IMG/VR virus record: IMGVR_UViG_3300020596_000120
Span: 1-20,997 of that record
Length of the DNA stretch: 20,997 bases
Strand: one strand, 5' to 3'
Origin: a virus
Below the pieces are notes generated by a model, which had not been told where the DNA came from, did no database searches, and saw only the letters and a list, made by a program, of their open reading frames with translations. The translations under genes were made by a program, and so were the position numbers. Of this stretch, positions 950 to 20,997 are shown one piece after another. Every line of letters starts with the position of its first letter. Position 1 is the first letter of the stretch.

Positions 950-1002
950 TAGTCTAAAGTCCTATAAAGAAACCCCGCCGACCAAATCCTGTTTTGTGGT
1001 AG

Positions 1003-1028
1003 GATAAGGTGGCAAAAAGAAAAAATAG
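1003..1028 (-). promoter_or_regulatory. Late-promoter-like motif, copy A
   Basis: The plus strand reads GATAAGGTGGCAAAAAG followed by an A-run and TAG. On the minus strand this is CTATTTTTTC then TTTTTGCCACCTTATC. It is one of six related copies in the window and lies about 54 bases upstream of the tail-fibre start at 949. The first part (GGATAAGGTG, one mismatch, CAAA) is almost identical to copy D. Role as promoter is inferred from position and recurrence only. Confidence 0.55.
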
Positions 1029-1031
1029 TAT

Positions 1032-1060
1032 GGGGGCGAACGACCCGACCCATTAGGGTG
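1032..1060 (-). repeat. 29-bp dispersed repeat (core TGGGTCGG), copy 1
   Basis: On the minus strand this reads CACCCTAATGGGTCGG and then GTCGTTCGCCCCC. It matches copies 2-5 at nearly all core positions. It begins four bases after the TAG stop of the 145-residue gene and ends just before late motif A. ACCC and GGGT can pair around a TAAT loop. A terminator or processing role between two transcription units is possible. Confidence 0.6.
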
Positions 1061-1064
1061 GACC

Positions 1065-1502
1065 CTAGCTAAGTTCTGTAACTTGGAGTATACTTACAGC
1101 GGCTGTTGGGCCATTTATTACAGCTATAAAGGGGTTTCTAAAACGTCCTACATCGAGAGTAACTCTATCCCCAACTCCAACAAACATGCTTGTAGCGGAG
1201 GCAGTCTGGGTGCCTTCACCAATTCTAATGTAGGCGTCATTGTTGCGGGCGTATACTGTGATAGCTCTTATTCCGGACGTTAGGGCCGTGGCAGCACTAG
1301 TGCCCGAAGTAGTTAATACATGAGAAGTTCCGGGCGTAAAAACGTTTGGGGAATCTACAGTACTGTTGGTATCCTTAAGGGACGTATTAGGAATAAAATT
1401 ATTAACAGTCAGGTCAGACTGAAAAACTCCGTTGGGCATAGCTCTCTGTACATAAGAACCGGTTTTATAAGGATTGGCGTTGATGCATTTGGTGTAAGAC
1501 AT
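1065..1502 (-). CDS. Small beta-rich virion structural protein, 145 aa
   Basis: ATG at 1502 is preceded by GGAAGG with good spacing. The product has no membrane segment or coiled coil. It is rich in Ser, Thr, Val, Ile and Gly, with alternating hydrophobic residues that suggest beta sandwiches. The C-terminal half (ITVYARNNDAYIRIGEG through VISILQ-like VSILQVTELS) resembles small phage virion proteins that sit near capsid or tail genes, but I do not recognise a named family. It is set off upstream by a roughly 270-base leader region carrying late motif B and a strong hairpin, and is followed by the tail-fibre gene after 29-bp repeat copy 1. A structural role is inferred from context and composition; it could be a head fibre, a neck protein or a small tail protein. 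Confidence 0.65.
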   Translation of the reverse strand: MSYTKCINANPYKTGSYVQRAMPNGVFQSDLTVNNFIPNTSLKDTNSTVDSPNVFTPGTSHVLTTSGTSAATALTSGIRAITVYARNNDAYIRIGEGTQTASATSMFVGVGDRVTLDVGRFRNPFIAVINGPTAAVSILQVTELS

Positions 1503-1570
1503 ATTTACCTTCCGATCTGCCTCTGGCAGTAAATAGGAATTTTATTCCGCCACGCGAAAAGCGGGCTCCA

Positions 1571-1590
1571 TGTGGGGTTTCGCCCCCACA
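1571..1590 (-). other. Hairpin in the leader of the 145-aa gene
   Basis: TGTGGGG and CCCCACA pair perfectly over seven bases around a six-base loop. It lies between late motif B and the start codon at 1502, so it would be in the 5' untranslated RNA if transcription begins near motif B. No T-run follows on either strand, so it is not an obvious terminator; RNA stability or translational control are possibilities. Confidence 0.4.
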
Positions 1591-1602
1591 CGACGGGTTC
1601 GT

Positions 1603-1633
1603 GATAACAAAGGGTGGCAAGGAAAAAATATAG
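1603..1633 (-). promoter_or_regulatory. Late-promoter-like motif, copy B
   Basis: The plus strand reads AGGGTGGCAAGGAAAAAAT and then ATAGG. On the minus strand this is CCTATATTTTTTCCTTGCC followed by ACCC. It lies about 105 bases upstream of the start at 1502 and matches the six-copy consensus. A nearby AGATATATACTCA (1647-1659) is identical to a 13-mer just before the sigma gene (16646-16658). Confidence 0.55.
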
Positions 1634-1723
1634 GGCATTTCCCTGTAGATATATACTCAATGTGGGCGGGCGAACGGGTAAGTCGGGAATTATGTGGGTG
1701 GGCGATTTAATAAAAATGGGCAC

Positions 1724-1750
1724 AAAAAAACCCCCGGAATTCCGGAGGTT
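1724..1750 (-). terminator. Intrinsic terminator after homing endonuclease
   Basis: On the minus strand CCTCCGGAATTCCGGGGG forms a hairpin around the CCGGAATTCCGG palindrome and is followed directly by seven T. It lies 25 bases past the stop of the endonuclease gene at 1775. Confidence 0.85.
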
Positions 1751-1774
1751 GATGAAAATAATAAATAGATATCT

Positions 1775-3373
1775 TTAAGGAGTTTTTATATATTTAGCCT
1801 GACCACAATCCCAAAGTTTGTTATAGCCCATCTCATACCCAGTATTTCCGGGGAATCTCATTCTATGAATTCTTTTATGGCCATTGGTCCAGCAAAATGA
1901 CTTATAGCAAGATTCAAATACAAACCCAAGATCTGCCAAATAAAGACCCTCTCCATATCTCTTATCTATAAATGTAAGAATCGAAGTATGTTCAACGGTT
2001 TTCTCAAAATGAGACAAAAGTTTAGAAAATGCCCCCATCACAGAAACATTCAACTTAGAACAAAACCTTGAAACCTCGTAATCCGAACCCTTTTTACGTT
2101 TCATCTGCAAGCAGGATACTGGATACCCATCATACATAAGAAAATATGTCAAGCTACTCGGGCCGGGGCCCATTAGATGATTATCCTGAACAAACCGGAC
2201 ACCATCTTGAGTGGAAACCTCTTTAATTTCACATTTCCGGGCAGCAATTTTTTCTGTAATTAATCCAGCCTTGTTTTTTATTATAGATTTAATGATTTCG
2301 GGTTTTTCAACAACCTCATCTTCCCAAAAAAACAATGACCTATATCCCAAACTTTTATAATATTCTAGTTTTTCAACATGATAATCGTCATTAGGTTGAT
2401 ATCGGTCGGAATGCCATATTACGCCGCATGGCTCTAAAATTAGCTTCTTGTCTTCTATATTAAAATCAGGATAGCATTTCCCAAGCTTGTTCTTATTAAA
2501 CTCAAGACCCATGCCAGAAACCCAAGAGGCCATAATCTGTTCTAGAGAACTAATCTTGGGGGTCATTTTACAAGCTTCATCATATCCGTAACTATGTATT
2601 AAATACCTAAATCTAGAATCAGAATATCCCGAAGACTCTCTTAGTTCAGAGACGGTTTTACCATTATATGTTTTGAGTTTACCAGTATCTTTTTTTATTT
2701 GCAAAATTCTTTTTCCATGCTCATCTCCATGCTTTGGAACCTTTAAATAATGATCATAACCATATTTAGCCATATTAATAGCTTTAATTTTTTCTTTAAT
2801 TTCTTCTGCCTGAAAAGGGTTCTCCACTCCAAAATTAACCATCATAGATTCTTTACATGCTTTTCTACCAATATCTGAGCTTAAATAACATTTACTTCCA
2901 TATTTTTCAGTATTAGTGTTACGTACTTTATCTTTAACCTCTTCGCTTTGACTAGAGTATTCAACTCCAAATTTTTCTAAATTAGTTGCTTTAGTTCTTT
3001 CTATAATTTCTGGCACTAACTGCATATTATCTGTACCGTATTTTTCTATGCAGGTCTTAGATCTCTTATCTTTGAAATCTTGAGTTTTTAACCTTTCTAT
3101 CGATGCTGGAATTAATTTATCCATTATTTCTTTTCGTTCAAATTGCGATTTAACTCCATATCTCATTAAATTAATTGCTTCTATTTTTTTGTGCTTACAT
3201 TTTTTGCAACAGTCTGTCGCTATATCTTTATGAGCTATCGTGCGAATTTTCATAGATTTGTCAAAATCTTTTCCACAATAATCACAAATTAATACCAAAA
3301 GTTTATTTGAGCCCGGAGTTAAAGAACTTCCATAATACCCAAATTTTTCCATAGTCTTTTCGTCTTGAATCAT
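1775..3373 (-). CDS. Free-standing Vsr-like (EDxHD) homing endonuclease, 532 aa
   Basis: AAGGA six bases upstream supports ATG at 3373. Residues 30-59 hold a CxxC...CxxC zinc-binding pair (C30, C33, C56, C59). Residues 70-205 contain six (K/R/N)(Y/F)G motifs, at 71, 111, 134, 157, 180 and 203; the last five are spaced exactly 23 residues apart and look like DNA-binding repeats. Residues 275-365 carry a Vsr-like nuclease core: E278, YPDF with D303, EPCGVIWHSD (E314, H321), YHVEK and FFWEDE. This fits the EDxHD family of phage homing endonucleases. The tail (about 385-510, DNHLMG, VSRFC, LADLGFVF) resembles a GNAT-like fold often appended to such proteins. Such enzymes cut an unoccupied site in a related genome so that repair copies the gene in. 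It sits between capsid and structural genes, lacks the late motif, and is bracketed by terminators. Its visibly A/T-rich sequence differs from its neighbours, as expected for a mobile gene. Confidence 0.8.
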   Translation of the reverse strand: MIQDEKTMEKFGYYGSSLTPGSNKLLVLICDYCGKDFDKSMKIRTIAHKDIATDCCKKCKHKKIEAINLMRYGVKSQFERKEIMDKLIPASIERLKTQDFKDKRSKTCIEKYGTDNMQLVPEIIERTKATNLEKFGVEYSSQSEEVKDKVRNTNTEKYGSKCYLSSDIGRKACKESMMVNFGVENPFQAEEIKEKIKAINMAKYGYDHYLKVPKHGDEHGKRILQIKKDTGKLKTYNGKTVSELRESSGYSDSRFRYLIHSYGYDEACKMTPKISSLEQIMASWVSGMGLEFNKNKLGKCYPDFNIEDKKLILEPCGVIWHSDRYQPNDDYHVEKLEYYKSLGYRSLFFWEDEVVEKPEIIKSIIKNKAGLITEKIAARKCEIKEVSTQDGVRFVQDNHLMGPGPSSLTYFLMYDGYPVSCLQMKRKKGSDYEVSRFCSKLNVSVMGAFSKLLSHFEKTVEHTSILTFIDKRYGEGLYLADLGFVFESCYKSFCWTNGHKRIHRMRFPGNTGYEMGYNKLWDCGQAKYIKTP

Positions 3374-3423
3374 AATTTTCCTTCGTTAGGTTATTACTGT
3401 TGGATGTCGCATAAAGACATACC

Positions 3424-3455
3424 CTGTTTTATTATACCTGTTCAACCGAAAAAAG
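3424..3455 (-). promoter_or_regulatory. Possible sigma-70-type promoter for the homing endonuclease
   Basis: The minus strand has a perfect TATAAT (3431-3436) in the short gap between the capsid terminator and the endonuclease start. The -35 region is poor: a T-rich stretch lies at the right distance and no TTGACA-like box is clear. It would let the endonuclease be transcribed apart from the late operons. Confidence 0.35.
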
Positions 3456-3478
3456 AAACCCGGAATTAACCGAGTTTC
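3449..3478 (-). terminator. Intrinsic terminator after major capsid gene
   Basis: On the minus strand GAAACTCGG pairs with CCGGGTTTC around TTAATT, with one mismatch, and is followed by six T (3454-3449). It lies about 40 bases past the capsid stop and separates it from the endonuclease gene. Confidence 0.8.
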
Positions 3479-3519
3479 TTATTTTGTTATCAAATACCCG
3501 CTAAGGGGGCGAATTCTGC

Positions 3520-4515
3520 CTAGAAGCTGCCTACTAGGGTGCGTCTTCCGTCTAATACTGCGAACCCGCAAGACATCCAGCTGTAATAACCTTGTCTCTG
3601 TTGACGATGCAAAGCTTCGTCCTCAAACACTTGGAGAGGTTGATCAATTGGCATCAGGAAGGAAGTGTCGCTAGACATATCCAATCCAACAACCAATTCG
3701 GTGTCAGTACCAGAAAGGGTAGCTGCAAGATCAGTAATAAAGTAATCCTGATATTCTTGTCCATCACCCAACTCGAACAAATCGTGGAGTGTAACTCCAT
3801 AGATTCGGGAGAGTGGAGCACCGCCATCAGCGGCAACATAAATTTCTCGGCGAGAAGTATCGTCAAGTTGATCAATTCCCCAATTTCGAATGTCTTCGAC
3901 ACCTTCAATCGAGAGGAACAAGTCAGTCAATCGACCGTTGGCAGTAACCGAATTACCGCCACCATTTCGACGCATAACAGACTTCATGAGCGAAAGCAAT
4001 CGCTTGGTCATTTGACCAGCGGCGGCGTCAGCATCGAAAACCAAAATATTTCGGTCAGCAGCGGCAGCCAAAAGAGTATGCCATCCGTCATCATTAAGTT
4101 TCTTAACGAAACCATTTTCCATAACTTGAACTGCTCGGCTCAAGATGTTCCACGATCCATTCTTTGCATACTTCAAAAGAAAGTCGATGCTAGAAGCAAT
4201 TCCGTATGTTGCAATACGAACATAATCGCTTTCAACAGACTTCTGAGGAATATAGCCGTGTCCGGGATTGGTGTAGGCAGTAAACTGGCCTTCAGTTCCG
4301 GGTGCTAGCAAGTCAAGAGGATATTCAGTCATTCCGTCAGTCGTGGTGGTAAAAATACCTTCCAAAACATTACCGGCCTGAATACCTTTGCGAAGTGGCA
4401 ACTCAATCGCCCGAGCGATTTGTCGTTGTGCTTCAAGTGCCGTTGCTTTATCTGAGCTACCAGAAGCTTTAAGAAGTTCTACAAACTCTGGCGTTGGTTC
4501 TACAATATTTTTCAT
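3520..4515 (-). CDS. Major capsid protein, HK97-like, 331 aa
   Basis: The gene follows protease/scaffold and decoration genes in the usual phage order, with AGGAG seven bases before ATG 4515. The product fits a capsid subunit in size and composition. It has a helical N-terminal stretch (residues 1-50), then a mixed alpha/beta body with a helix-rich middle (about 105-190, including FLLKYAKNGSWNILSRAVQV) and a beta-rich end with GVTLHDLFELGDGQEYQDY, then FLMPIDQPLQVFEDEALH near 285-305. The end pattern resembles the part of HK97-fold capsids that contacts neighbouring subunits. The N-terminus may be trimmed by the prohead protease. A strong terminator lies just downstream. Assignment rests on gene order plus these features rather than on a diagnostic motif; a second virion protein is the main alternative. 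Confidence 0.8.
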   Translation of the reverse strand: MKNIVEPTPEFVELLKASGSSDKATALEAQRQIARAIELPLRKGIQAGNVLEGIFTTTTDGMTEYPLDLLAPGTEGQFTAYTNPGHGYIPQKSVESDYVRIATYGIASSIDFLLKYAKNGSWNILSRAVQVMENGFVKKLNDDGWHTLLAAAADRNILVFDADAAAGQMTKRLLSLMKSVMRRNGGGNSVTANGRLTDLFLSIEGVEDIRNWGIDQLDDTSRREIYVAADGGAPLSRIYGVTLHDLFELGDGQEYQDYFITDLAATLSGTDTELVVGLDMSSDTSFLMPIDQPLQVFEDEALHRQQRQGYYSWMSCGFAVLDGRRTLVGSF

Positions 4516-4541
4516 TCTATGTCTCCTAATCTATTATTTTA

Positions 4542-5015
4542 TTATCGTGTAGTTGCTGGGAAATTAACTTCAACCTTGGCGTATCCATCTTGATCAGGAA
4601 TACTCATCCACTGACCAATTACAGAAGCACCGCCAAAAGTATTGGCCGCTGCAAGGTTTCCAGAGTTACCCACATGACATGGGGCACCAGCCGTTGGAGC
4701 GGTTCCTTGAATTCTGTTGGTAACAACCCAACCTTGACGAAGCAAGGTTACTTTAGAACCCCGTTGTACTTCATTTCTGAATGGATTCAAGTATTGACGA
4801 GTTAGGTCAATATTTACCATATCATTCAAAAGAATTCCCATAGGAATTTTATTCGTAGGGTTAGCCGCATATGTTACCAAGGCAGCACCTTGGTCCATAG
4901 CCGCACCTGAACCGGACGTAGTGCCAAGGCAAACAGCCCCGCCACGCTCAGCAACTTCATTCATGAAGAAGGTAATGTCTGTGTGAAGTTCTAATCGATC
5001 TGCTTTAAGAGCCAT
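4542..5015 (-). CDS. Capsid decoration / stabilising protein, 157 aa
   Basis: GGAG ten bases upstream supports ATG 5015. The gene is tucked between the protease/scaffold gene (18-base gap) and the capsid gene (26-base gap), the place occupied by decoration proteins in many phages. The product is small and beta-rich, with an internal pattern like head-stabilising proteins: a Gly-rich segment AVCLGTTSGSGAAMDQGAAL, then NKIPMGILLNDMV, then a barrel-like stretch GSKVTLLRQGWVVTNRI and APCHVGNSGNL. These echo the layout 'value, default, multiplicative label, gain or loss of barrel' seen in decoration proteins of the lambda gpD/DUF2190 type. It probably binds the expanded head surface. No catalytic motif is visible. 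The family assignment is tentative; the structural role is well supported by context. Confidence 0.65.
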   Translation of the reverse strand: MALKADRLELHTDITFFMNEVAERGGAVCLGTTSGSGAAMDQGAALVTYAANPTNKIPMGILLNDMVNIDLTRQYLNPFRNEVQRGSKVTLLRQGWVVTNRIQGTAPTAGAPCHVGNSGNLAAANTFGGASVIGQWMSIPDQDGYAKVEVNFPATTR

Positions 5016-5033
5016 ATTATATATTCTCCGTTT

Positions 5034-5624
5034 TTACTTGTTGGAAGTTTTTAGTACATTTTTGCCCATCCAGCTAGTAGCAACTTCCTGCAAGGAAGGA
5101 ACTACTATTGGCTCGGCGATATCATTAAGGGAAGCGACAGCTTTTTCAGTTTCTACAATAATAGAAATTTCTTTAGCTACTGTCTCCTCAGCTTTAATAC
5201 CCATTTTTTCTTTTTTCTCTTCTTTATCTTCTTCTTTTTCTTTAACAACTTTGCAATTAGCCTTTTTCATAGCTGCTGCAACCTTATCAAAAGCTTCGTC
5301 GCTCAATGCATCAAAGCAAGAACAGTCTTCATCTTCATAACCAGCTTCAGCCAAAGATGCTTTACGCTTGTCGTCTTTAGCCTTCTTTTCAAAACCTTGC
5401 CATTTAGCAACGGCTTCGTCTCGGGCTTTAGTAACATCAAGCAAAGTAGCTTTAGTTCCAGTAAGTTCAGCCTTTGTAGATTCAGCTTGGGATACAAGAT
5501 CCTTAAGGCTTAGGCTCAAAGTTTCAGCTTCAGTTTTAAAAGACGTGAGAGATGCAATAGTAGCTTCTGCTTCTACAAGCTTAGCTTTTACGCTCTCAAG
5601 CTCCAATTCTAGTTCTTTCGGCAT
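5034..5624 (-). CDS. Nested in-frame scaffold protein, 196 aa
   Basis: Inside the protease gene, ATG at 5624 (residue 276, MPKELELELESVKAKL) is preceded by a perfect AGGAG with eight bases of spacing, better than the site of the full gene. The shorter product would be exactly the charged coiled-coil part, rich in Glu, Lys and Ala, with a C-terminal tail ending in SWMGKNVLKTSNK. In lambda-like phages the scaffold is made from such an internal start in excess over the protease fusion. The sequence shows the site and the domain boundary; production of the short form is inferred. Confidence 0.6.
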   Translation of the reverse strand: MPKELELELESVKAKLVEAEATIASLTSFKTEAETLSLSLKDLVSQAESTKAELTGTKATLLDVTKARDEAVAKWQGFEKKAKDDKRKASLAEAGYEDEDCSCFDALSDEAFDKVAAAMKKANCKVVKEKEEDKEEKKEKMGIKAEETVAKEISIIVETEKAVASLNDIAEPIVVPSLQEVATSWMGKNVLKTSNK

Positions 5625-6449
5625 ATCATTTTCTCCTGATTTATCGTTAGCGGCACATTGTACCAATTCTTCTTCAGTAACAGGCTCGGTAGTTAATTCG
5701 ACTTTTTCTGAATCTACTGAACCAATAATTATTACACTTTTTGGATTAGCTGGCTTATTTACAAGACCAACTCCAGAAAAAGCCAAGTCTTTTAAAACTC
5801 GGCCAACTTTATATCCTTCATATACTCCGGTGCCGCCATATGCCCGCAAATGTTTACTTAGATGTGCGGTAGCTTCACTTCTTTCTATATATTTTAAATC
5901 TCCAGAGTCAGACTTTAATTCATAATCAAAAGTCGGAAATAAACACTCCATTGAAACAAACCATTTTCCCTCTTTAATCTCAGCTATAATCTTTTCGCAT
6001 CTAGCCTGAAGGTCTGCGTCTGTCCAAGAAGTATATATTACAGCGTTATTAACTATGTTAAAATCACCCGGAATCTTAAATTCTAAATGCTCAATATCAG
6101 AGATTTCGTTTCCTTCAAAATCTGTAGCATAACTTCCAGTCATATGCCCAATAATATCTTTTTCATTGTGCATAAAATTAAATTGTTTATCTTCTGGAGT
6201 ATGACGTGCGGCCCATGTAATTTCGGGCAAAAATACGTCATCATTATTGTTCCACCCAGTACTAACTAAGATCGACTTTAAGTAAAAAAGGTCAGACTGA
6301 AATGGGTTGGCAGAAGCTACAGCAATCTGTAGGGGTTTTTGATTATGAGGAAATGTATCAATTTGGGCTAAAGACATACAGGCGACCGAAACATTGGAGC
6401 TAATTTGTTCCGCAATCCCGTCAGCTATTTCTTTAGCGAATATTTTCAT
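5034..6449 (-). CDS. Prohead protease fused to scaffold region, 471 aa
   Basis: ATG at 6449 follows a weak GGAA. Residues 1-250 look like a head-maturation protease of the T4 gp21/herpesvirus-assemblin kind. They contain NNNDDVFLPEITWAARHT (about 67-84), a histidine in NFMHNEKDIIGHM (about 90-102) and SMECLFPTFDYEL (about 171-183) as candidate catalytic His and Ser. From about 276 the protein becomes highly charged and helical, with long heptad-like stretches (ELELELESVKAKLVEAEATI, then repeated K/E/D runs), typical of an assembly scaffold that is later digested. A nested start with an excellent ribosome site lies at the domain boundary (see 5034-5624), as in the lambda C/Nu3 arrangement. It heads the operon protease-scaffold, decoration, capsid and has late motif F about 49 bases upstream. 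Catalytic residues are inferred, not proven. Confidence 0.75.
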   Translation of the reverse strand: MKIFAKEIADGIAEQISSNVSVACMSLAQIDTFPHNQKPLQIAVASANPFQSDLFYLKSILVSTGWNNNDDVFLPEITWAARHTPEDKQFNFMHNEKDIIGHMTGSYATDFEGNEISDIEHLEFKIPGDFNIVNNAVIYTSWTDADLQARCEKIIAEIKEGKWFVSMECLFPTFDYELKSDSGDLKYIERSEATAHLSKHLRAYGGTGVYEGYKVGRVLKDLAFSGVGLVNKPANPKSVIIIGSVDSEKVELTTEPVTEEELVQCAANDKSGENDMPKELELELESVKAKLVEAEATIASLTSFKTEAETLSLSLKDLVSQAESTKAELTGTKATLLDVTKARDEAVAKWQGFEKKAKDDKRKASLAEAGYEDEDCSCFDALSDEAFDKVAAAMKKANCKVVKEKEEDKEEKKEKMGIKAEETVAKEISIIVETEKAVASLNDIAEPIVVPSLQEVATSWMGKNVLKTSNK

Positions 6450-6497
6450 ATTTTTGTTCCAAGTTATTATTTTAATACATTTACCTAAGAATCAATA

Positions 6498-6521
6498 CAC
6501 CAAAGAAAATATATATATTAG
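6498..6521 (-). promoter_or_regulatory. Late-promoter-like motif, copy F
   Basis: The plus strand reads CACCAAAGAAAATATATATA then TTAG. On the minus strand this is TATATATATTTTCTTTGG followed by TG, matching the consensus except that the C doublet before ACC is changed. It lies in the 82-base gap between the portal stop and the protease start, about 49 bases upstream of ATG 6449. Confidence 0.5.
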
Positions 6522-6531
6522 TTTAGAGGCA

Positions 6532-8634: not shown

Positions 8635-8743
8635 GACATATCCGAACTTTTAAGAAAAGTGCCAAAAGTGCCGCATAATTGTAATACAATTGGTAATGCG
8701 ACTACAAATGAATACTCAAACAAAAATCACAACCGCTAATCGC

Positions 8744-8769
8744 GGATTGGCAAAAGAAAAAATATATAC
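8744..8769 (-). promoter_or_regulatory. Late-promoter-like motif, copy C
   Basis: The plus strand reads GGATTGGCAAAAGAAAAAAT then ATATA. On the minus strand this is TATATATTTTTTCTTTTGCC followed by AATCC. It lies in the 157-base gap between the resolvase-like gene and the portal gene. The leader after it contains an ATTGTA/TACAAT inverted repeat and two AAGTGCC copies (8657-8675). Confidence 0.55.
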
Positions 8770-8791
8770 ATGTTGGTTAGGAAGAAGGTAA

Positions 8792-9436
8792 TTATCCTAT
8801 CGAATGTTTGTAGAAGCTTACCCGGCCTTTTTCTACACATTCCTTAATTTGCTTCTGGACTTTGTTTAGGGCGGATTTTCCAGTCTTTATATCTACTAGT
8901 ACTATTCCAGTTACTAGGCCCTTAGACATTCCCTCAAATATTACTAAGTCGATGGGGCTTCCCATGAAACGGGCATCTGAAGACTCATAAGGGAACTCGG
9001 GCAGGAATGGGGCCATTTCTTCCGAGATTTGCCCTTTTAACACGGCCCGGCTCGTATCTACTGCGTCCTTACGTGCTAGTTGAATATCTTTGGTGTGGAC
9101 TTGCTCGGACTCAACCTGAGCGATTTTAAGGGCCCCCACCTGTTCTTGATATCCTTTTATCTGGAGACCCATCTGTTGATTCTGCGATAGGAACTCATTA
9201 AAGGTTACAGAAAGGCTCTTGTTCTGAGTCTCCAAAATACCTATTTTTTCTATTGCATTATTATGCTTTTGAATTAGACTATTTGCAGCCTCGTCCCAAA
9301 TTTCCACTCCTTCTTTTTGCCTAAGTAGTTCCGCGTTAAGGTTAGCTATTTTGGCTAAGTTGGGCCCCCAAATAGAATCAAAAACAATGTAAATAGTTAA
9401 AACCATAATTGATAAACATAAACCTAATATTACCAT
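8792..9436 (-). CDS. Membrane-anchored Holliday-junction-resolvase-like nuclease, 214 aa
   Basis: The gene starts four bases after the terminase stop, with AGGA six or seven bases before ATG 9436, so it is translated with the terminase. Residues 1-20 (MVILGLCLSIMVLTIYIVF) form a membrane segment. Residues 28-125 are a long coiled coil rich in Glu, Gln, Asn and Lys. Residues 155-210 hold a nuclease core: GSPIDLVIFEG (D163), IVLVDIKTGKSALN (D182, K184) and a helix with QKQI. This PD-(D/E)xK pattern and the coiled-coil-plus-core layout match the 'endonuclease related to archaeal Holliday junction resolvase' family. It may trim or resolve branched DNA before or during packaging. The membrane anchor is unusual for a packaging helper and could point to replication at the membrane or to another role. 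Confidence 0.7.
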   Translation of the reverse strand: MVILGLCLSIMVLTIYIVFDSIWGPNLAKIANLNAELLRQKEGVEIWDEAANSLIQKHNNAIEKIGILETQNKSLSVTFNEFLSQNQQMGLQIKGYQEQVGALKIAQVESEQVHTKDIQLARKDAVDTSRAVLKGQISEEMAPFLPEFPYESSDARFMGSPIDLVIFEGMSKGLVTGIVLVDIKTGKSALNKVQKQIKECVEKGRVSFYKHSIG

Positions 9437-9440
9437 TTTT

Positions 9441-12400
9441 TTATCCTGCGTTTATAAACCAGTCGGGGCCATCATACATTTTACCATCATTAAGTTCTTC
9501 AGGCTTCATCTTTCGGGAGAATCCACCCGCATTAGAATACCCATCAAATACGCTAGTCACAACGCCGGTACGGGCAGACATGTTAGCCATGACTAGGGCC
9601 GAATACCTATCCTTACGCAACTTTCCCTTTTTACCAGTTCCCGCCGAAGAATCAGGGGTGTCCCATCTTTCCCGGCCTGTCGCGGTTTGTGTCACCACGA
9701 TCATAGCTAATTCATCTTTAAGTTCCTCTATGTCCATCACACAATCTTCTAGGGTGTCATAAACACGACCCTCGGCAGCATCTTCTTGGTATGACATTTC
9801 TAGGGCGATAGGATCGTAGTACGGAAACAGTAGGACCTTATCTTCCATATCTTTCCTTAGGCCGTGATTAGCTGTTCCCGTCCAATCCGATTTAGCAAAA
9901 TTAACCATATTTAATATGTGGAGCCCATTATGATCATCAGTATCCTTAGGTTTTTCCGGATCTATAGTGGGCCACAGAGGTATCTCCCCGGCTTTTATCT
10001 TATCCTTATCGTGTAAACACTCCTCTATAGCCCGGCCCCCACCCTGAGAGTCAATAGCTATCTCCTGTGTTGGGAATACCTTCATTAAGTCCCGGATCTT
10101 CCTAGAGCAATATGCGTAAAAGTCAGTCTCTTCTACAGTGCCCGTCTTAATTTTTTCTTTGTGTTGTTGTTTATTGGTGGTCCATACATGCACGATCCTT
10201 CTATGGTCAGGATTAACTTCAACTACTACGATAGCAAAATGATCCACCTCAGAAGCAGGGTCAACGCCTATAACGTATTTTTTAGTTGTGTCTCCCCGAA
10301 GCATCGCCTCGAAAAAAACTTCGCCCGAAGCTAATAATATAGGATGGTTATGTTTTACAGTGCAGGACTCTATAAGGGTGCGTTTAAAAAATCCCACACT
10401 GTCTCCTGAAAAGCAATTATGAACGGTTGCAGTCGGCAAAGAGTAAGAATTGTCCTCCTCCACCTCTAAATTATAAACATAGTCGTAATAATCAACAATT
10501 TTACTGGATTTTATTCTGTGATACTGATTAAAATCGTCTGACCATAGATATGTAGAATTTTGAGTCTTTATAAAATGTTTCTTATCTGGATAAAACTCAT
10601 TTATAAACTTAGCAAAACTTCCGCCACTTATTTTTATTCCATATGCCTGTTGTGTCTTATGGATCTTACCATTGATTACTGCAAAACCTTTATTTTTTGG
10701 TCTTAACATATTTGAAGGTATATTAAATATCGATAACACTAATCTTATTTGGGTTATAAGATTCTCGTTAGTTAGTTGTATTCCGGCAGATCCACATCTA
10801 ATGTGACCGTCACCATTAAAAGCTCCAACAATAAATCCTTTTAAAAACTCCTTATTTGAAAAAAGTATTTTAGTGTCAATAATTTTGTCATAACAAACTC
10901 CGGGACATATTGATTTAAATAAATCTACTAAAATTCTAGAATTATATACAACATTAACATTTTCATCAGTTTTGCATAAATATTTTTTTGTACTTATCCC
11001 AAAAGTTTTAAAAGCAGATGCCTCAAGAGTTTCGACAATTTTTTGTAAACTATAGTCTACATGAGAATCTAACGAAAAACAAACGGTTTTTCCTTTAGAT
11101 CCGCAAGATCCTTCTGAAGCATAATATCCAACACAAACACCAAAATCATAATCTAGTCTTATGTTTGAATTAACCGCAGTCTTTGGTCTTTTTTTAGACT
11201 GCTTAATTGTTTGACTAACAAGAGAAAAATGAACCCCAGTCTCTTTTGCTATGTCGCACTGTCTAAAACCAGTCTTATACATATCAATTATTTTATCTCT
11301 AATTTTATCATCCATTTTGTTTTGAGATGATTTTGGATATATGTATATTCCGTTATTATTAAAATTTCTCGTATAATCGCATAAATTTATGCTATCCAAA
11401 CCACTAAGTTCATGCAAATTAGATAAACATGTAGATCCTTCTACATTATATAGTGGAATAAAATCCTTTGAATCAAAAAAAGGATGATTGGGAGTTATTA
11501 GATATGGTTTATAATATCCAGAAGTTCTTATCTCGATCATATCCCCCTTATGAATCTTGTAGGTTTTTTTTAAAACTTTCCTGAACCTATTTTTATGAGT
11601 TAATACCAAATCTCCTATTTGTATATCTACTATATTCTTAGAGCCTGTAGGAGTTATTATTTGAGTCTCGGCATGTACACATGCTTCGTATTCCATATTA
11701 AAGGTGCCTGTATGAATACTTGCTTTGGCCTTAGCTATCATCCCCTCATCCATCAAACCTTCATCTAATTGACCAACAGGAATCCTAAGAATTGTATAAT
11801 CATCCCAATTAAAAGCTTTGCTATCAGAGGTGCCTAATGCGTCATCTAGTTTTTTCTTATCACCCTTGGTAGTTAACCAAGTTTTGTATTTTTTCCAATA
11901 ATCGTAAAAATGATTAAATGTATAATATGCAGTACCCGCCACAACAATTTGATTTCCTTTTTGTCCGGGCTCTGACTCATCTATCTTTATAAGACCTAGC
12001 CTTTCTCTCTTTTTTCTCTTGACCTTTTCAACTGGAGAAGAACTAACGACACCAAACCCAAAAACAACTGTTTCAAGAATATCTATTGGGATAGAATTAT
12101 GTTGAATAAAGCCGTTACCCATAAAAGAATTTGTTTCAGGCATGTAGAAATCGTAAAGATGTTCTTGTTTTGGAAGAAGTTCTACAGACCTGACTTTTAA
12201 AACAAAATTGCTAGTTTTTTTGTATTCAATAAAATAATCTACAGCTTCTTGCTCTGTATTAAAAGTGCCAAGATGGACATTCTTATTTGATTCACTGGTA
12301 GACAAATAATATCTATCTCCAAATTTCGTCTTTTTAAAAATGATATGAGGTTTTTTTACAAGAAAATGTCCGTCTTCAAATTTATTATCCCATTTTATAA

Positions 12401-13859
12401 TATCTAGGAGTTTACATAATTTGTGGGCGTTTTCCCCTCTAATAGAAAGCATCCAACTATCAGCCTTAGAGACTCTATTTTTATTTCTTTTAATTAAACA
12501 CGCAGAAATATTGAATTTAAGAAGAAGTATGTGTAATTGATCTATTAACCTTCTACCAGAACTGTAGTAGGCACAACCAATTCTTTTCTTATTTTGCTCC
12601 TTGTCCATATAGGTAAATCCACTTCCGTCACCCTCAAATAATCCAGACAAAAAAGCAATAACTACCGGCCTAGAGCTTCTTAAAATATCCTTAGGGATAT
12701 CTTTTTGAACAGCAATCTTGTATCCAAGACCAAACTGAAATAATTGATGCCTAAATTCAGTAGATGAATAAGTTATAACCCAAGACTCTTTACACTTCCA
12801 TCCCCTACCGTCCGTGTATTCTGGGCGATACGTTTCGGCCCAATGGAAATGCGGAAATCTATCTTTAATTTTATCTATAAGTTTTTTATCGGTATTAGTT
12901 ATTGATATATAGTTTCTATTCGCAACAGAGCCTTCAGACACAAGAACCCCTAATAACCATCCTATTTCTTCATCTAAAACCAAACCATCTTTTTCAATGT
13001 CTCTTTCTGGAAAATAATTATTTGTATCAAGAATTAAAGAATCTTTCTTAGGCTCTAGATCCTTAGCTAATTTCCATCCCTCCTGAGTCATTACTGTATG
13101 AATATTAGAGCATCTAAAATTATATCCGTTTTCAGTTGTTATCTTGTAAACATCCGTCAAAGGAGTTTTTACCATGTGGGCGGGCGATTCTAGTTTTCTA
13201 TCTTTATTAAGAAGTTGCATGGCATTAGAATTAGCCCAATCAGAGATTTCGATCAATCCGTCATCAGTTTGAATCAAAGTGTCTGATCCGAGGCAAGAGA
13301 ACTCATCGCATACTATGTCATGTGCCCGCTCTCCACGTATAGTATCCCCACTACCTAAAGGTAAACATGTTATGGTGCTATTATTGATTTTTACCGTACA
13401 TCTATCCACGCCCCCAAAACATCCACTTCCACCTGCACACACGTCTCTAAGTACCGGAGCATTATCCCAAATATCCTTCATATAAGCATAAAGAAATTTA
13501 GACTGACGAAAAGCCGCCCCCACAATAACAATTCTTCTTTTTGGTAACAAAAGTGCCCTAAGTATACAATAAACTGATAGGCAAAAACTTTTTGAAGCAC
13601 CTCTACAAGCAATCATCATTGGAAACTTCTTATCCCACAACTCCTTAATAATAACTAACTGCATCGGTAGCAAATCCACATTCAATATATACTTAGTAGC
13701 GAACCTAAAATATTCAGGCATACTCATTACTATATAGAGCTTCTTCATTACCTCTTCGGGGTCGGGATCACTATAGATAAATTCCATAGGATTAAAAAGC
13801 TCCTCATCAGGAATCTGTATGTCAAGCCAGTCATTATCAAATTCGCTCTCTATACTCAT
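9441..13859 (-). CDS. terL: Large terminase subunit precursor with two inteins, 1472 aa (about 650 aa after splicing)
   Basis: ATG at 13859 overlaps the upstream stop as ATGA. The three extein parts are residues 1-188, 589-726 and 1149-1472. The ATPase has Walker A-like CRGASKS (85-91) and Walker B DIVCDEF (181-187). The nuclease half has VIGVDPAS (D1200), IAIDSQGGG (D1270) and KDRYSAL (D1417), matching the three acidic motifs of the RNase H-like TerL nuclease. Joining the exteins gives VCDEFS-SIPIDI and NMEYEA-CFSGDS, both normal TerL sequence, and a 650-residue protein of usual length. TerL docks on the portal, pumps DNA with ATP and cuts concatemers. Both inteins sit at catalytically important conserved sites, so splicing must work for packaging. 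The exteins are less A/T-rich than the inteins. It is coupled to the ERCC4 nuclease upstream and the resolvase-like gene downstream. Confidence 0.93.
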   Translation of the reverse strand: MSIESEFDNDWLDIQIPDEELFNPMEFIYSDPDPEEVMKKLYIVMSMPEYFRFATKYILNVDLLPMQLVIIKELWDKKFPMMIACRGASKSFCLSVYCILRALLLPKRRIVIVGAAFRQSKFLYAYMKDIWDNAPVLRDVCAGGSGCFGGVDRCTVKINNSTITCLPLGSGDTIRGERAHDIVCDEFSCLGSDTLIQTDDGLIEISDWANSNAMQLLNKDRKLESPAHMVKTPLTDVYKITTENGYNFRCSNIHTVMTQEGWKLAKDLEPKKDSLILDTNNYFPERDIEKDGLVLDEEIGWLLGVLVSEGSVANRNYISITNTDKKLIDKIKDRFPHFHWAETYRPEYTDGRGWKCKESWVITYSSTEFRHQLFQFGLGYKIAVQKDIPKDILRSSRPVVIAFLSGLFEGDGSGFTYMDKEQNKKRIGCAYYSSGRRLIDQLHILLLKFNISACLIKRNKNRVSKADSWMLSIRGENAHKLCKLLDIIKWDNKFEDGHFLVKKPHIIFKKTKFGDRYYLSTSESNKNVHLGTFNTEQEAVDYFIEYKKTSNFVLKVRSVELLPKQEHLYDFYMPETNSFMGNGFIQHNSIPIDILETVVFGFGVVSSSPVEKVKRKKRERLGLIKIDESEPGQKGNQIVVAGTAYYTFNHFYDYWKKYKTWLTTKGDKKKLDDALGTSDSKAFNWDDYTILRIPVGQLDEGLMDEGMIAKAKASIHTGTFNMEYEACVHAETQIITPTGSKNIVDIQIGDLVLTHKNRFRKVLKKTYKIHKGDMIEIRTSGYYKPYLITPNHPFFDSKDFIPLYNVEGSTCLSNLHELSGLDSINLCDYTRNFNNNGIYIYPKSSQNKMDDKIRDKIIDMYKTGFRQCDIAKETGVHFSLVSQTIKQSKKRPKTAVNSNIRLDYDFGVCVGYYASEGSCGSKGKTVCFSLDSHVDYSLQKIVETLEASAFKTFGISTKKYLCKTDENVNVVYNSRILVDLFKSICPGVCYDKIIDTKILFSNKEFLKGFIVGAFNGDGHIRCGSAGIQLTNENLITQIRLVLSIFNIPSNMLRPKNKGFAVINGKIHKTQQAYGIKISGGSFAKFINEFYPDKKHFIKTQNSTYLWSDDFNQYHRIKSSKIVDYYDYVYNLEVEEDNSYSLPTATVHNCFSGDSVGFFKRTLIESCTVKHNHPILLASGEVFFEAMLRGDTTKKYVIGVDPASEVDHFAIVVVEVNPDHRRIVHVWTTNKQQHKEKIKTGTVEETDFYAYCSRKIRDLMKVFPTQEIAIDSQGGGRAIEECLHDKDKIKAGEIPLWPTIDPEKPKDTDDHNGLHILNMVNFAKSDWTGTANHGLRKDMEDKVLLFPYYDPIALEMSYQEDAAEGRVYDTLEDCVMDIEELKDELAMIVVTQTATGRERWDTPDSSAGTGKKGKLRKDRYSALVMANMSARTGVVTSVFDGYSNAGGFSRKMKPEELNDGKMYDGPDWFINAG
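10416..11681 (-). mobile_element. Intein 2 in TerL (LAGLIDADG with helix-turn-helix), 422 aa
   Basis: Precursor residues 727-1148. It opens with Cys in CVHAETQIITPTGSKNIVDI (block A) and has LITPNHPFF as block B with the conserved Thr and His. It closes with VYNLEVEEDNSYSLPTATV and a terminal His-Asn, followed by Cys+1 (CFSGD). All splicing residues are present, so it should be active. The endonuclease has two LAGLIDADG-like helices, FGVCVGYYASEGS (906-918) and FLKGFIVGAFNGDGH (1005-1019). An added helix-turn-helix (about 851-890, ..MYKTGFRQCDIAKETGVHF..) precedes the first helix and may help DNA binding. It interrupts TerL at NMEYEA/CFSGDS, the conserved end of the ATPase region. Confidence 0.92.
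12096..13295 (-). mobile_element. Intein 1 in TerL (LAGLIDADG with AP2-like domain), 400 aa
   Basis: Precursor residues 189-588. It begins with Cys (CLGSDTLIQTDDGLIEI, block A), has CSNIHTVMT as block B with the conserved His, and ends YDFYMPETNSFMGNGFIQHN (blocks F and G), followed by Ser+1 (SIPIDI). The nuclease has two LAGLIDADG-like helices, IGWLLGVLVSEGS (299-311) and VIAFLSGLFEGDGSG (400-414). Between the nuclease and block F lies an AP2-like DNA-binding segment (about 514-551, with VHLGTFNTEQEAVDYF). It is inserted immediately after the Walker B motif VCDEFS. The key splicing residues are intact. Asp in the second helix (GDG) supports a working nuclease. Confidence 0.92.
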
Positions 13860-14332
13860 TTACCCCGCCCGTACTTCTCATATATTCTTTTCATGACACA
13901 TGTAGTCATTGTGAAAGCACTACTAGGACTCCCACAAAACATTACATTTATCCCATATTCTAGCTGGACCTCGGTTAACAACTTAAGGACCATTTTGCCC
14001 GTCATCTTTATAAGCTTAAGCTTAGATGGAGGTATTCCAGACCCTTCCGGAAATCTAAGGAGGTCGTCCAAGTAGAACTCGCACATAATATATTTATGCT
14101 TAATAGGCCTCATTCTCTCTAGCTCTTTATAAAAGCGAACACTATCCATCCCTAAATTCGTAGATATTTCCGATGGAGTAGCCTTCCGCTCAACGCAAAT
14201 ATAATCCTCAAGACCCTTTATAGTGTAGTCGCCCGTTTTTATAGCAACGTGCTCACAACCTAAGCACTTATCATTAGGCTCGAAAGTCCACCCAGTCTTT
14301 TCACGAGTATCTGCAAGTATTATATAACCCAT
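13856..14332 (-). CDS. ERCC4-type nuclease domain protein, 158 aa
   Basis: The product is essentially one ERCC4/XPF-like nuclease domain. Residues 4-12 read IILADTREK (D8), residues 33-36 TGDY (D35) and residues 46-52 CVERKAT (E48, R49, K50), giving the GD...ERK active site. The rest, with FYKELERMRP and YIMCEFYLDDLL, continues the usual fold; no helicase or HhH domain is present. Such single-domain proteins in phages may cut branched or flapped DNA. The gene overlaps the terminase start by four bases (ATGA), so the two are translationally coupled, which suggests a job in preparing DNA for packaging. AAAGG precedes ATG 14332 with a short leader after late motif D. The function at packaging is inferred; the fold assignment is good. 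Confidence 0.75.
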   Translation of the reverse strand: MGYIILADTREKTGWTFEPNDKCLGCEHVAIKTGDYTIKGLEDYICVERKATPSEISTNLGMDSVRFYKELERMRPIKHKYIMCEFYLDDLLRFPEGSGIPPSKLKLIKMTGKMVLKLLTEVQLEYGINVMFCGSPSSAFTMTTCVMKRIYEKYGRGK

Positions 14333-14350
14333 TTTAAACCTTTGTTGTTG

Positions 14351-14378
14351 GATAAGGTGACAAAGAAAAAAATATAGG
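14351..14378 (-). promoter_or_regulatory. Late-promoter-like motif, copy D
   Basis: The plus strand reads GATAAGGTGACAAAGAAAAA followed by AATATAGG. On the minus strand this is CCTATATTTTTTTCTTTG then TCACCTTATC. It is the copy closest to its gene: the motif ends 19 bases before ATG 14332. If it is a promoter, the transcript would start inside or just after the CACC part. Confidence 0.6.
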
Positions 14379-14411
14379 TCATTTTATATTCACTTAATTA
14401 TGCTAGGGGCT

Positions 14412-14440
14412 AATCCGACTAGGTCGGGTGATCCGCCCCC
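14412..14440 (+). repeat. 29-bp dispersed repeat (core GGTCGG), copy 2
   Basis: Reads AATCCGACTAGGTCGGGTG and then ATCCGCCCCC on the plus strand. CCGAC and GTCGG pair perfectly around TAG (14415-14427), and the wider GGGGC/GCCCC arms can also pair. It touches the TAG stop of the ClpP-like gene and lies before late motif D, so it has the same stop-repeat-motif layout as copy 1 but with the repeat in the opposite orientation. Confidence 0.6.
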
Positions 14441-15081
14441 TACAAATACCCCTTAATTTTTTCTATTGTCTCATATTCTGAAGAACCTAATACTGCGTCA
14501 GAAAACCCGTAATATACAGCTTCATTAGAAGAGATCCACCAATCTTCCTTAGAAGATAACTTACGTTTTAAAAACGCCTTAACTTTAGATTCTTTATCGC
14601 CCCCAAAATGTTCCCCCCTAAGACAAACCCTAGCATAAATGTTGTACATCTTTTCTGTTGCTAACTTATTTGCCTCAGCGTATGAATTCGCCGCCCTATT
14701 TGTATGTTCCAAGCTTATAGATCCCTCGTGTATCAACCAATCACAATTAGGACTTGTTATTCTATAACCTTTTCCGGGCCTTACAGCCTGAGGAATTACC
14801 GAACCCATACTGGCCGCACACCCATGACTAATAAATAGGATAGGGCTACAGGAAAAAAATATAGTATCATATACGGCCATTCCGGCAGCCCAATCGCCCC
14901 CAACACTATACTGATGTATTATAATGGGATTTTGCCCACGAGCTTCTAGGGCCCTCATATTCTTAATAAAATTCATCGCCACATCAGAATTTATTTCATC
15001 ATATAGAAAAACTTCTCGGGCATCTAAGGAAATCCCAAATTCATGAATGCATTCAATGTTATCGTATTTTACTGTGGCCAT
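14440..15081 (-). CDS. ClpP-like serine protease (S14 family), 213 aa
   Basis: I start it at ATG 15081, where TAATG joins it to the HNH gene; a TTG start 14 codons further up is less likely. The ClpP fold is clear: YSVGGDWAAGMAVYDTI (about 58-74) for the first helix, HGCAASMGSVIPQA (about 86-99) with nucleophile S91, and WLIHEGS (about 115-121) with H118. A later KEDWWISSNEAVYYGFSDAVL end matches the ClpP pattern around the third catalytic residue and the YG.aD motif. ClpP-like proteases act as head-maturation proteases in many phages. Here a separate gp21-like protease is present near the capsid, so this one may process a packaging or head protein or have another role. It is followed by 29-bp repeat copy 2. 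Confidence 0.82.
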   Translation of the reverse strand: MATVKYDNIECIHEFGISLDAREVFLYDEINSDVAMNFIKNMRALEARGQNPIIIHQYSVGGDWAAGMAVYDTIFFSCSPILFISHGCAASMGSVIPQAVRPGKGYRITSPNCDWLIHEGSISLEHTNRAANSYAEANKLATEKMYNIYARVCLRGEHFGGDKESKVKAFLKRKLSSKEDWWISSNEAVYYGFSDAVLGSSEYETIEKIKGYL

Positions 15082-15332
15082 TATCGGTGCCCATCCAGTA
15101 TTTTGACAAAATAACTCGCCCAAATCGATTCTTGATTCCTAATAGAGAAGTGGCACGGCTTACATAAACATATTAGGTTTTTCATATCGTACCTTAAGTA
15201 TGGGTTGTCGGCCCACCTAAATATATGATGAATCTGTAGGTTCCGGGCCATCTTCCTTTTTTTGCACATTTGACAGGTGCTCTTATCTCTTTTGCGAACC
15301 CTCTTATTTAAATCTCGGTCAGACTCTCTCAC
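15081..15332 (-). CDS. HNH endonuclease, 83 aa
   Basis: The start is GTG at 15332, which overlaps the upstream stop as TAGTG; the stop overlaps the next ATG as TAATG. Cysteines C20, C23, C57 and C60 form two CxxC zinc pairs. The HNH core is H35/H36 in LQIHHIFRW, N52 in MKNLICL, and H61 in KPCH. Small HNH proteins next to terminases in HK97-like phages help cut DNA at packaging. The position between a candidate small terminase and a ClpP-like protease fits this. A stand-alone homing nuclease is the alternative, but the tight start/stop overlaps on both sides suggest a resident phage gene. Confidence 0.82.
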   Translation of the reverse strand: MRESDRDLNKRVRKRDKSTCQMCKKRKMARNLQIHHIFRWADNPYLRYDMKNLICLCKPCHFSIRNQESIWASYFVKILDGHR

Positions 15333-16135
15333 TAATCCGTCCTCATGACCGTATCGGAATTAAGAAGGGGCCTATCCACCACACCGTCCTCATATCTAAT
15401 GGCTGTTCCGAGCCTGTCATACTCGGCCTTAGCTGCCAGCCTATACTTTTCCATTTCTAGGCCGACCTGTTTCCTAAATTCGGAGTTCTCTGTTAGGCGA
15501 GTCATGAGGGCCGTGAATGTTTGCTTGCTATCCTCAATATGCTTAACTCTTTGATCTCGGGTTCCCTTAATGGCCTTGAGTAGGTCTGACTTTTGCTTCA
15601 TCAAGCTTTGATACTCGTCCGACATGTTTTTCATCGAGCCATACATCGTGGCAAGCTGACGCTCTAAAAGGCTAAGCATCTCAATATCCCAAGTCCCCGG
15701 TGGCTTTTGTTTTTCGCTTAGGATCGCGTACTGAATTTGCTCCATCTGTCTTCGTATGGTCCCCTGACCAATCAATATTCGGTCGCACATAATACTAATT
15801 TTAATAATATCAAGAATCTGCATTTCTTCGGTGTGGAACACGTCATCCTTGAACTGAGCATACATCTTGGCGTATTGCTCCTCAAACGTCTTGAGTTCGT
15901 CCCTATCGAACTGCTTCATCAGATCCCCATAGAATGGCCTCGTCTTTAAATGGGCCTTGGTGTCAATCTTAAGCTGCTCTATGCGGGCAACCCCCAAGTT
16001 CTGAATAATATAATCTTGAATCTTATCGGCTCTACGCCCCAAATGTGCCGCCATTTCTTTGCACGACAACTTATCTTTATTCTTAATTATATAGTCAACT
16101 TCTTCGACCGTAAATTTGCTTGGTTTATCTGCCAT
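15332..16135 (-). CDS. DNA-binding protein, candidate small terminase subunit, 267 aa
   Basis: I choose ATG 16135 (MADKPSKFTVEEVDYI), which overlaps the sigma gene's last codons by 11 bases; GGGAGG lies 15 bases upstream, rather far. A TTG start nine codons upstream is possible. Residues 8-45 contain a helix-turn-helix-like segment (FTVEEVDYIIKNKDKLSCKEMAAHL...). Residues 75-240 are long helices with heptad spacing and many Lys, Glu and Gln, which could form the oligomerisation region. A small DNA-binding, helical protein just upstream of HNH and in the terminase area is what small terminase subunits look like, but no family motif is clear. A packaging or regulatory role is inferred from the neighbourhood. 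It is followed by the HNH gene in a TAGTG overlap. Confidence 0.45.
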   Translation of the reverse strand: MADKPSKFTVEEVDYIIKNKDKLSCKEMAAHLGRRADKIQDYIIQNLGVARIEQLKIDTKAHLKTRPFYGDLMKQFDRDELKTFEEQYAKMYAQFKDDVFHTEEMQILDIIKISIMCDRILIGQGTIRRQMEQIQYAILSEKQKPPGTWDIEMLSLLERQLATMYGSMKNMSDEYQSLMKQKSDLLKAIKGTRDQRVKHIEDSKQTFTALMTRLTENSEFRKQVGLEMEKYRLAAKAEYDRLGTAIRYEDGVVDRPLLNSDTVMRTD

Positions 16136-16643
16136 ATACTTGAGCCATCGCCTCCCTAACAATATGCACTATCTCTTTTTTGCGAGTCTGACTAATTCTC
16201 ACCCCGGCCAACATTCTAAGATAGTCTTTTCTGTGGATGACCGGAATAAGTTTATCTAATTCTTTTTTTCTATCCATACCATCTATTAGGGCCGCATAAT
16301 CAACCTCATACATCTTACTTACCTTATCCATATTGCCGGGGCTCATCAGGGCCCTCTTGACAACCTGAAGGTGTTCAGCGGTGCCCGCATTGGGCCGATA
16401 GAAATGATCCCTCTTAAAGGTCTTCATTCTGTTGCTGATATGATTCGCTATAAAGTTTTTGAAGGGGCGAATCCCGTCGTAACGGGTTAAAGCATCCATG
16501 CCCATGATATAGGCCTCTTGAACTAGATCTTCCGCCGTAAAATTAGCGAACGCATACTTCGGGGCTATGTTATTGGCTAGCTCCCAAATTATTAGGTGAT
16601 GATCTTCATTTGAGAGAATTTTTTGATTGTTTTCTTTATCCAT
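16125..16643 (-). CDS. Sigma-70-like transcription factor (T4 gp55-like size), 172 aa
   Basis: Residues 20-82 match sigma-70 region 2: ELANNIAPKYAFANFTAEDLV-type helices, EDLVQEAYIMGMDALTRYDG (38-57), PFKNFIANHISNRMKTFKRD (60-79). These are the parts that bind the RNA polymerase clamp and the -10 element. The C-terminal half (about 100-170) is Lys/Arg-rich and helical and may hold a reduced region 4. The length, 172 residues, is close to the T4 late sigma gp55. It heads the leftward cluster, with late motif E about 220 bases upstream, and there is no strong ribosome site; an AGATATATACTCA element on the plus strand (16646-16658) lies directly before ATG 16643. The natural hypothesis is that it directs late transcription from the six-copy motif. 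Whether it is the sigma that reads that motif is not shown by sequence. Confidence 0.7.
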   Translation of the reverse strand: MDKENNQKILSNEDHHLIIWELANNIAPKYAFANFTAEDLVQEAYIMGMDALTRYDGIRPFKNFIANHISNRMKTFKRDHFYRPNAGTAEHLQVVKRALMSPGNMDKVSKMYEVDYAALIDGMDRKKELDKLIPVIHRKDYLRMLAGVRISQTRKKEIVHIVREAMAQVYGR

Positions 16644-16777
16644 GCAGATATATACTCATTTTATAAGGGGTTTTTACAAGTTACGCCTCAAAACAAGCAA
16701 TATGGGCACATATTAATAACCGTAATACTAAAAAATAAGTAACGTAATCTTCGCTAATCACTCAGATTGGAGATACC

Positions 16778-16799
16778 TCGTCTGAGAATTTTCAGACGA
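16778..16799. other. Perfect inverted repeat TCGTCTGA...TCAGACGA
   Basis: Eight-base arms pair perfectly around GAATTT. No T-run follows on either strand. It lies between the sigma gene and late motif E, about 140 bases from the sigma start, and could be an operator or an RNA hairpin in the sigma leader. A second inverted repeat, CAACTTTT/AAAAGTTG, follows at 16815-16832. Confidence 0.45.
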
Positions 16800-16862
16800 T
16801 CTTTCGCCAATAACGGCTTCAGATCAACTTTTAAAAAAGTTGCAAAATTGTGTGTTGGCCCA

Positions 16863-16886
16863 AATGGTACAAAGAAAAAAATAAGG
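16863..16886 (-). promoter_or_regulatory. Late-promoter-like motif, copy E
   Basis: The plus strand reads AATGGTACAAAGAAAAAAAT then AAGG. On the minus strand this is CCTTATTTTTTTCTTTG then TACCATT. It lacks the second TA of the TATAT box and is the most distant from its gene, about 220 bases upstream of 16643. Confidence 0.45.
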
Positions 16887-17224: not shown

Positions 17225-17309
17225 ACCTAAAGGAAAAAACTTCTATAAAAGGCCCGCCCTCATATGTATGTTAATAGGAAGATGTACTAATTTTTTTATT
17301 TGCTACCTT

Positions 17310-17328
17310 AAGGGCCAAAGCCCTTTTA
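17310..17328 (+). terminator. Weak terminator-like hairpin
   Basis: AAGGGC and GCCCTT pair perfectly around CAAA and are followed by TTTAT-like sequence. The T-run is short, so termination would be weak. Confidence 0.35.
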
Positions 17329-17397: not shown

Positions 17398-17426
17398 CAC
17401 CCTAGTGGGTCGGCTTATTCGCCCCC
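17398..17426 (+). repeat. 29-bp dispersed repeat (core TGGGTCGG), copy 3
   Basis: Reads CACCCTAGTGGGTCGG then CTTATTCGCCCCC. It is nearly identical to copy 1 read on the minus strand. A T7 run follows at 17440-17447. Confidence 0.6.
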
Positions 17427-17513
17427 ATAAGTTGTTTCATTTTTTTACATAGTTCTCCCCATCCATATTTACGATGTTGCGATAGGTGCTGTTCCAGAAT
17501 TATGGTGGGGGCC

Positions 17514-20950: not shown

Positions 20951-20951
20951 T

Positions 20952-20997
20952 GCTGGGCCGAGTCGCTGGGCCGAGTCGCTGGGCCGAGTCGCTGGGC
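20952..20997 (+). repeat. Second 13-bp tandem array at the window end
   Basis: GCTGGGCCGAGTC is repeated three times (20952-20990), then GCTGGGC reaches the edge, so the array continues beyond the window or the assembly stops in it. The unit length equals that of the 19389 array but the sequence is different. Confidence 0.85.

Follow-up and report, generated by a model that had tools for sequence, protein, structure and literature searches.

The window, by which we mean the whole stretch of DNA analysed here, is a virus record of 20,997 bases, and the known extent of this phage genome is ~21 kb. Mechanical gene calls place on the minus strand, in order, genes for a sigma-like protein, a 276-aa protein, an HNH protein, a ClpP-like protein, an ERCC4 nuclease, an intein-bearing terminase and a resolvase-like protein, followed by portal, 471-aa, cement-like, capsid, homing endonuclease, 145-aa and fibre genes; a plus-strand region with small genes lies beyond this block. 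The portal gene (6532-8634, minus strand) matches PHROG 2739 (E = 8e-10). The capsid gene (3520-4515, minus strand) is putatively that of the major capsid protein, its PHROG major head protein match reaching only E = 0.067, and the 471-aa gene (5034-6449, minus strand), which holds the prohead-protease position and is syntenic in relatives, is a putative protease gene whose PHROG head maturation protease match reaches only E = 0.08. The ERCC4 nuclease and large terminase genes together occupy 9441-14332 on the minus strand; the terminase (9441-13859) carries two intein-like insertions, with Intein_splicing and LAGLIDADG at approximately residues 207-588 and a Hint-like segment from approximately residue 727. 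Scanning of the window returned no RNA family and no tRNA.

The window phage belongs to an uncultured family with a common gene order and records of up to 169 kb: its portal has 379 related stretches in IMG/VR, on contigs reaching that length and arranged as in the window, and neither portal nor capsid has a match among cultured phages. Approximately 90 relatives, some of them near-duplicates, were found by exact peptide patterns, a form of search that skews the sample towards close ones; the capsid, which served as the query for finding relatives, reaches 71% identity with them. As no relative of the capsid was found in bacterial and archaeal genomes, no host was assigned, and a search with DnaE for the rest of the phage genome returned no contig from the sample (3300015360) that yielded contig L006. 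The latter is near-identical to the window over 233-15321 and, because its late gaps are nearly the same, is uninformative on conservation. Within the gap after the capsid gene (1764-3500), L006 has a strongly diverged homing-endonuclease-like region between nearly identical flanks, and comparison of the two sequences points to a likely recent swap of the element at this site.

An earlier note on this DNA had described an A/T-rich motif, with a minus-strand consensus, at six places (1003, 1603, 6498, 8744, 14351 and 16863), each intergenic and in front of a separate phage transcription unit. The motif is present at all six. Copy 1 (CTATTTTTTCTTTTTGCCAC, 1009-1028) lies before the putative tail fibre gene, which starts at 949, copy 2 (CTATATTTTTTCCTTGCCAC, 1614-1633) before the 145-aa gene, copy 3 (ATATATTTTCTTTGGTGTAT, 6495-6514, hereafter the 6498 copy) before the 471-aa gene, copy 4 (ATATATTTTTTCTTTTGCCA, 8748-8767) before the portal gene, copy 5 (CTATATTTTTTTCTTTGTCA, 14358-14377) before the ERCC4 and terminase genes in a gap missing in relatives, and copy 6 (CCTTATTTTTTTCTTTGTAC, 16867-16886) ~225 nt upstream of the sigma-like gene; the minus strand carries all six. 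A de novo EM search of seven minus-strand gaps, run without knowledge of this site list, recovered exactly the same six sites together with a weak match in the homing-endonuclease gap, with a motif score of 103.3 that exceeded those of all 60 dinucleotide-shuffled sets (82.6 ± 2.4, maximum 89.1). The absence of the motif from tight gaps, and of any good copy before the homing endonuclease, was likewise borne out. When a weight matrix built from the six copies was scanned over the window only, these ranked 1-6 among ~42,000 positions and were all noncoding, the noncoding share of the window being ~14%; with each copy left out of the matrix in turn, five stayed at rank 10 or better and the 6498 copy dropped to rank 43. 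Runs of at least six T on the minus strand are, however, over-represented in gaps generally (15 noncoding versus 12 coding), so that the invariably intergenic placement of the copies is less telling than it appears.

The details of the motif as first written fared less well. Allowing up to 3 mismatches, its consensus gave 11 matches against 1.6 expected, of which four were copies from the list and seven lay inside genes, two copies being missed; the 1003 and 6498 copies deviate from it in spacing. The appended CCACC is exact at 1003 and 1603 only, its place being taken by TCACC (14351), CCAAT (8744), TACCA (16863) and GTGTA (6498). Common to the five copies other than 6498 is T6-7–C–T2-5–G, with the T-tract half TATTTTTTTCTTTG. 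The distance from copy to start codon is variable, between ~30 and 230 nt. Masking of the T-runs in the window uncovered no clear second motif. A possible seventh, rightward copy (TTTTTTTATTTGCTACCTTA, 17291-17313, plus strand) sits in the long gap ahead of the plus-strand genes, with a score that lies within noise.

Sequence resembling TTTTTTTGTGTATTAT occurs in three gaps of the relatives, namely those preceding the 471-aa and portal genes and the one following the capsid gene. Following a T-tract, [TG]GNGTA stands before the 471-aa gene in 86 of 87 relatives; TG[TAC]GTA is present in the portal gap in 75 of 81, and TG[TAC]GTATA after the capsid gene in 45 of 77, compared with 0 for a reversed control. 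Six positions of the T-tract before GTA are conserved, with T at 61-72 of 73 aligned sites; as these sites were picked by GTA, the constancy of GTA is partly built in, whereas that of the T-tract is not. The same unbiased EM search applied to the relative G004 found TTTGTGTATA in seven of eight late gaps, 32-99 nt before starts, and in a second relative, G005, the best motif of the late gaps was not the box, though the box is present there. Summed over seven genomes, the box was enriched at noncoding positions no more than 120 nt from a start on its own strand, with 39 of 276 occurrences there compared with 9 of 153 when the pattern was reversed. Early genes of the sister phages G006 and G008 carry promoters of the ordinary CTTGACA-N17-TATAAT type, which sets the late box apart as a separate class; a limited literature search found no earlier description of it. 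These comparisons strongly suggest that the late-gene start signal of the family is a T-tract followed by TTGNGTATT, a box that just one of the six copies contains.

The choice of box was taken from the relatives and not from the window, where its p-values apply to single gaps. In the portal/471-aa gap, the family late box (ATTTTCTTTGGTGTATTGAT, 6491-6510, minus strand; p = 0.009 versus shuffles of the gap) coincides with the 6498 copy, the only one of the six to contain the GTA and T-tract of the box. Weak singly are the boxes before the portal gene (TTTTTGTTTGAGTATTCAT, 8708-8726, position 8715, minus strand; p = 0.064) and following the capsid gene (ACATTGAGTATATATC, 1648-1663, position 1656, minus strand; p = 0.107). 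A possible, weak box lies directly before the sigma gene (AAATGAGTATATATC, 16647-16661, position 16655, minus strand; p = 0.21), with a second candidate in that gap at 16728, and the ERCC4 and fibre gaps are without a good family box (p = 0.08 and 0.31). A family-type box is found, then, in three or four gaps, and in all but one it is separate from the T-run copy, which lies ~35 nt upstream of it before the portal gene, ~25 nt downstream after the capsid gene and ~210 nt upstream of the possible sigma-gene box. The invariant GTA is missing from the other five copies, which carry CCACC, CCACC, CCAAT, TCACC and TACCA after TTTG or TTG, the usual ending being (Y)CA(C)C where the family box has NGTATT. 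Relatives such as L008 and L035 have conserved CAATACNATT repeats in the interval that separates the late box from the start of the portal gene; the window weakly retains them as ATTACCAATTGTATTACAATT at about 8680-8700.

These five copies appear private to the population of the window phage. No counterpart was found in the late gaps of the relatives' loci and the seven related genomes scanned, and a scan of the whole of IMG/VR with the long motif returned only this phage population and five chance matches in unrelated contigs. Matches to T-run-CCTTTG in G002 and G005 were dropped, since on the opposite strand they read as ribosome-binding sites, rich in purines, that belong to small early genes.

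A candidate reader of the box is encoded in the window. The gene at 16125-16643 (minus strand) specifies a small phage sigma-like protein of 172 aa (Pfam Sigma70_r2, 8e-6), which also occurs in 12 of the 14 related records tested, with a region 2 that is conserved with relatives (NRxKxFKRDxxxR, including NRMKTFKRDHFYR). The quality of its predicted model is middling (pLDDT 73). Sigma factors, some of them ECF-type, head both the profile and the fold matches, the latter with weak E-values, none below 0.001. On these grounds the 172-aa protein likely reads the family late box.

The six gaps, judged from their sequence content and position, are very probably late-promoter regions. The explanation that we favour, with a probability of approximately 0.6 for the whole, is that the family late promoter would consist of a T-tract that leads into TTGNGTATT, a box of extended -10-like form whose GTA is invariant, read by the small phage sigma, with its one sigma-2 domain, on the host RNA polymerase; the 6498 copy would be the counterpart of this promoter in the window, and the five private copies would most likely act in cis in the late regions of this one lineage, as late promoters that have drifted or as upstream T-tract elements accompanying a distinct box. 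More broadly, each of these five may be a late promoter peculiar to the lineage, a T-tract element with a helper role, or a regulatory repeat of some other kind. The earlier note's claim of a dedicated late promoter unlike the T4 box TATAAATA survives in part, attached to a box that lies in the same gaps of ~75-86 relatives and has its counterpart at 6498. Its identification of the T-run/CCACC motif with that promoter agrees poorly with five copies lacking both GTA and counterparts in relatives, although no other signal is shared as strongly among the window's late gaps as the T-run copies, and a lineage-specific promoter role is accordingly still conceivable.

In its full form the earlier proposal, that T-run/YCACC is itself the late promoter and that the lineage rewired TTGNGTATT to TATTTTTTTCTTTG-YCACC, is in our judgement doubtful. 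The predominance of the motif in the six phage-unit gaps, with no good copy in that of the homing endonuclease, speaks for it, as does its occupying in the window the place held by TTTGTGTATA in G004; moreover, the fibre and ERCC4 gaps have a T-run copy and no family box, and the stretches downstream of these two copies (CACCTTATCCTACCACAAA in copy 1) are identical at 17 of 19 nt. Against this, the family box persists in three or four gaps, the scatter of start-codon distances is accompanied by no constant -10-like sequence, and sigma region 2, including NRMKTFKRDHFYR, is conserved with NGTATT-using relatives, so that a wholly new core would be unexpected.

That same 19-nt extension of copies 1 and 5, which a collection scan found in the same phage population only, could instead mark the five private copies as an intergenic repeat or operator without promoter function, i.e. 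a regulator site or a spreading hairpin/T-tract element. Such a reading, which we consider rather unlikely, would also accommodate the resemblance of copy 1 to plus-strand 17398-17444, which extends over 47 nt (79%) and takes in a GGGTCGG hairpin, the location of several copies in gaps that are shorter or missing in relatives, and the restriction of the motif to this phage population. However, most copies have nothing in common beyond the 20-nt core, and their strict tie to transcription-unit boundaries would have to be coincidence. Less probable again is a replacement, in one lineage, of the late core TTGNGTATT by T-tract-CTTTG-YCACC with the sigma kept, the 6498 copy, which fits both, being transitional.

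Sigma-70-type promoters, with the T-run as UP element and TTGNCA as -35 box, provide a very improbable account of the copies: TTGCCA or TTGTCA does follow the T-run in four of them, and T-tracts stand before the CTTGACA/TATAAT early promoters of G006 and G008, but inspection found no -10-like hexamer 16-18 nt downstream of any copy, and TTGACA-N17-TATAAT-like matches in the window are at chance level (47 versus 50 ± 7.5). It is just as improbable that the T-runs are U-tracts of intrinsic terminators closing the upstream unit since, although in four gaps the T-run begins 16-63 nt past the stop codon of the gene before it and GC-rich hairpins lie upstream of copy 1, a terminator scan gave none at any of the six sites, local folds were no better than shuffles at five of six, and a stable hairpin immediately ahead of the T-run is lacking in copies 3, 4 and 6.

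A phage sigma with its own late promoter, as in the favoured reading, is a known kind of system, exemplified by phiEco32 and T4. Late and middle promoters of phiEco32 and 7-11 are read by a phage sigma, with the phiEco32 consensus TAATGTATA (PMC4331800). phiEco32 and the window family both encode a sigma factor, which in the family would likewise act on host RNA polymerase, and both have a -10-like box only, ahead of structural genes and with TGTATA-like letters. The family box, in contrast, is a T-tract plus T[TG]GNGTATT without TAATGTATA, for which the window, at 1 mismatch, has 7 matches against 10.8 expected and hence no excess, and phiEco32-type phages are unrelated to the window phage by portal or capsid. 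The T4 late promoter is read by gp55 with gp33 and the clamp gp45 (PMC2988020). T4 resembles the window family in its small sigma, with similarity limited to domain 2, and in its -10-only promoter; the T4 box itself has two matches in the window, neither in a late gap, and is not enriched. Late promoters of AR9 and phiKZ (AACA-N6-TA/G; TATG) serve a phage multisubunit RNA polymerase (PMC5312081). These phages have in common with the window family dedicated late promoters and an AT-rich early motif, but differ in promoter sequence and in carrying their own RNA polymerase, none of which was seen in the 21 kb of the window.

The family box and its likely sigma would provide a concrete, testable late promoter for a large uncultured family, such that late genes could be called from sequence alone. 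Phage sigmas reading only a -10-like box are useful for asking what sigma proteins minimally need, and the window phage would add a possible case of promoter drift within such a family.

Several further features lie in these genomes. A GGGCCGACTTCGTCGGCC hairpin occurs many times at the start of the early region in G006 (L191-L193) and G008 (L176-L177), and after several of these copies come a T-tract and a CTTGACA/TATAAT promoter; related GGGTCGG hairpins are present in the window at 1051, 17407, 17523 and 17669. The 169-kb phage G008 also encodes a Ro60/TROVE protein (L178, 12361-13935, plus strand; Pfam 3e-33). Finally, the window contains two tandem arrays of 13-bp units, one at 19389-19512 (GTGCAATGAGGCG, ~9 copies) and one at 20945-20997 (GCTGGGCCGAGTC, at least 3 copies) that continues past the contig end.
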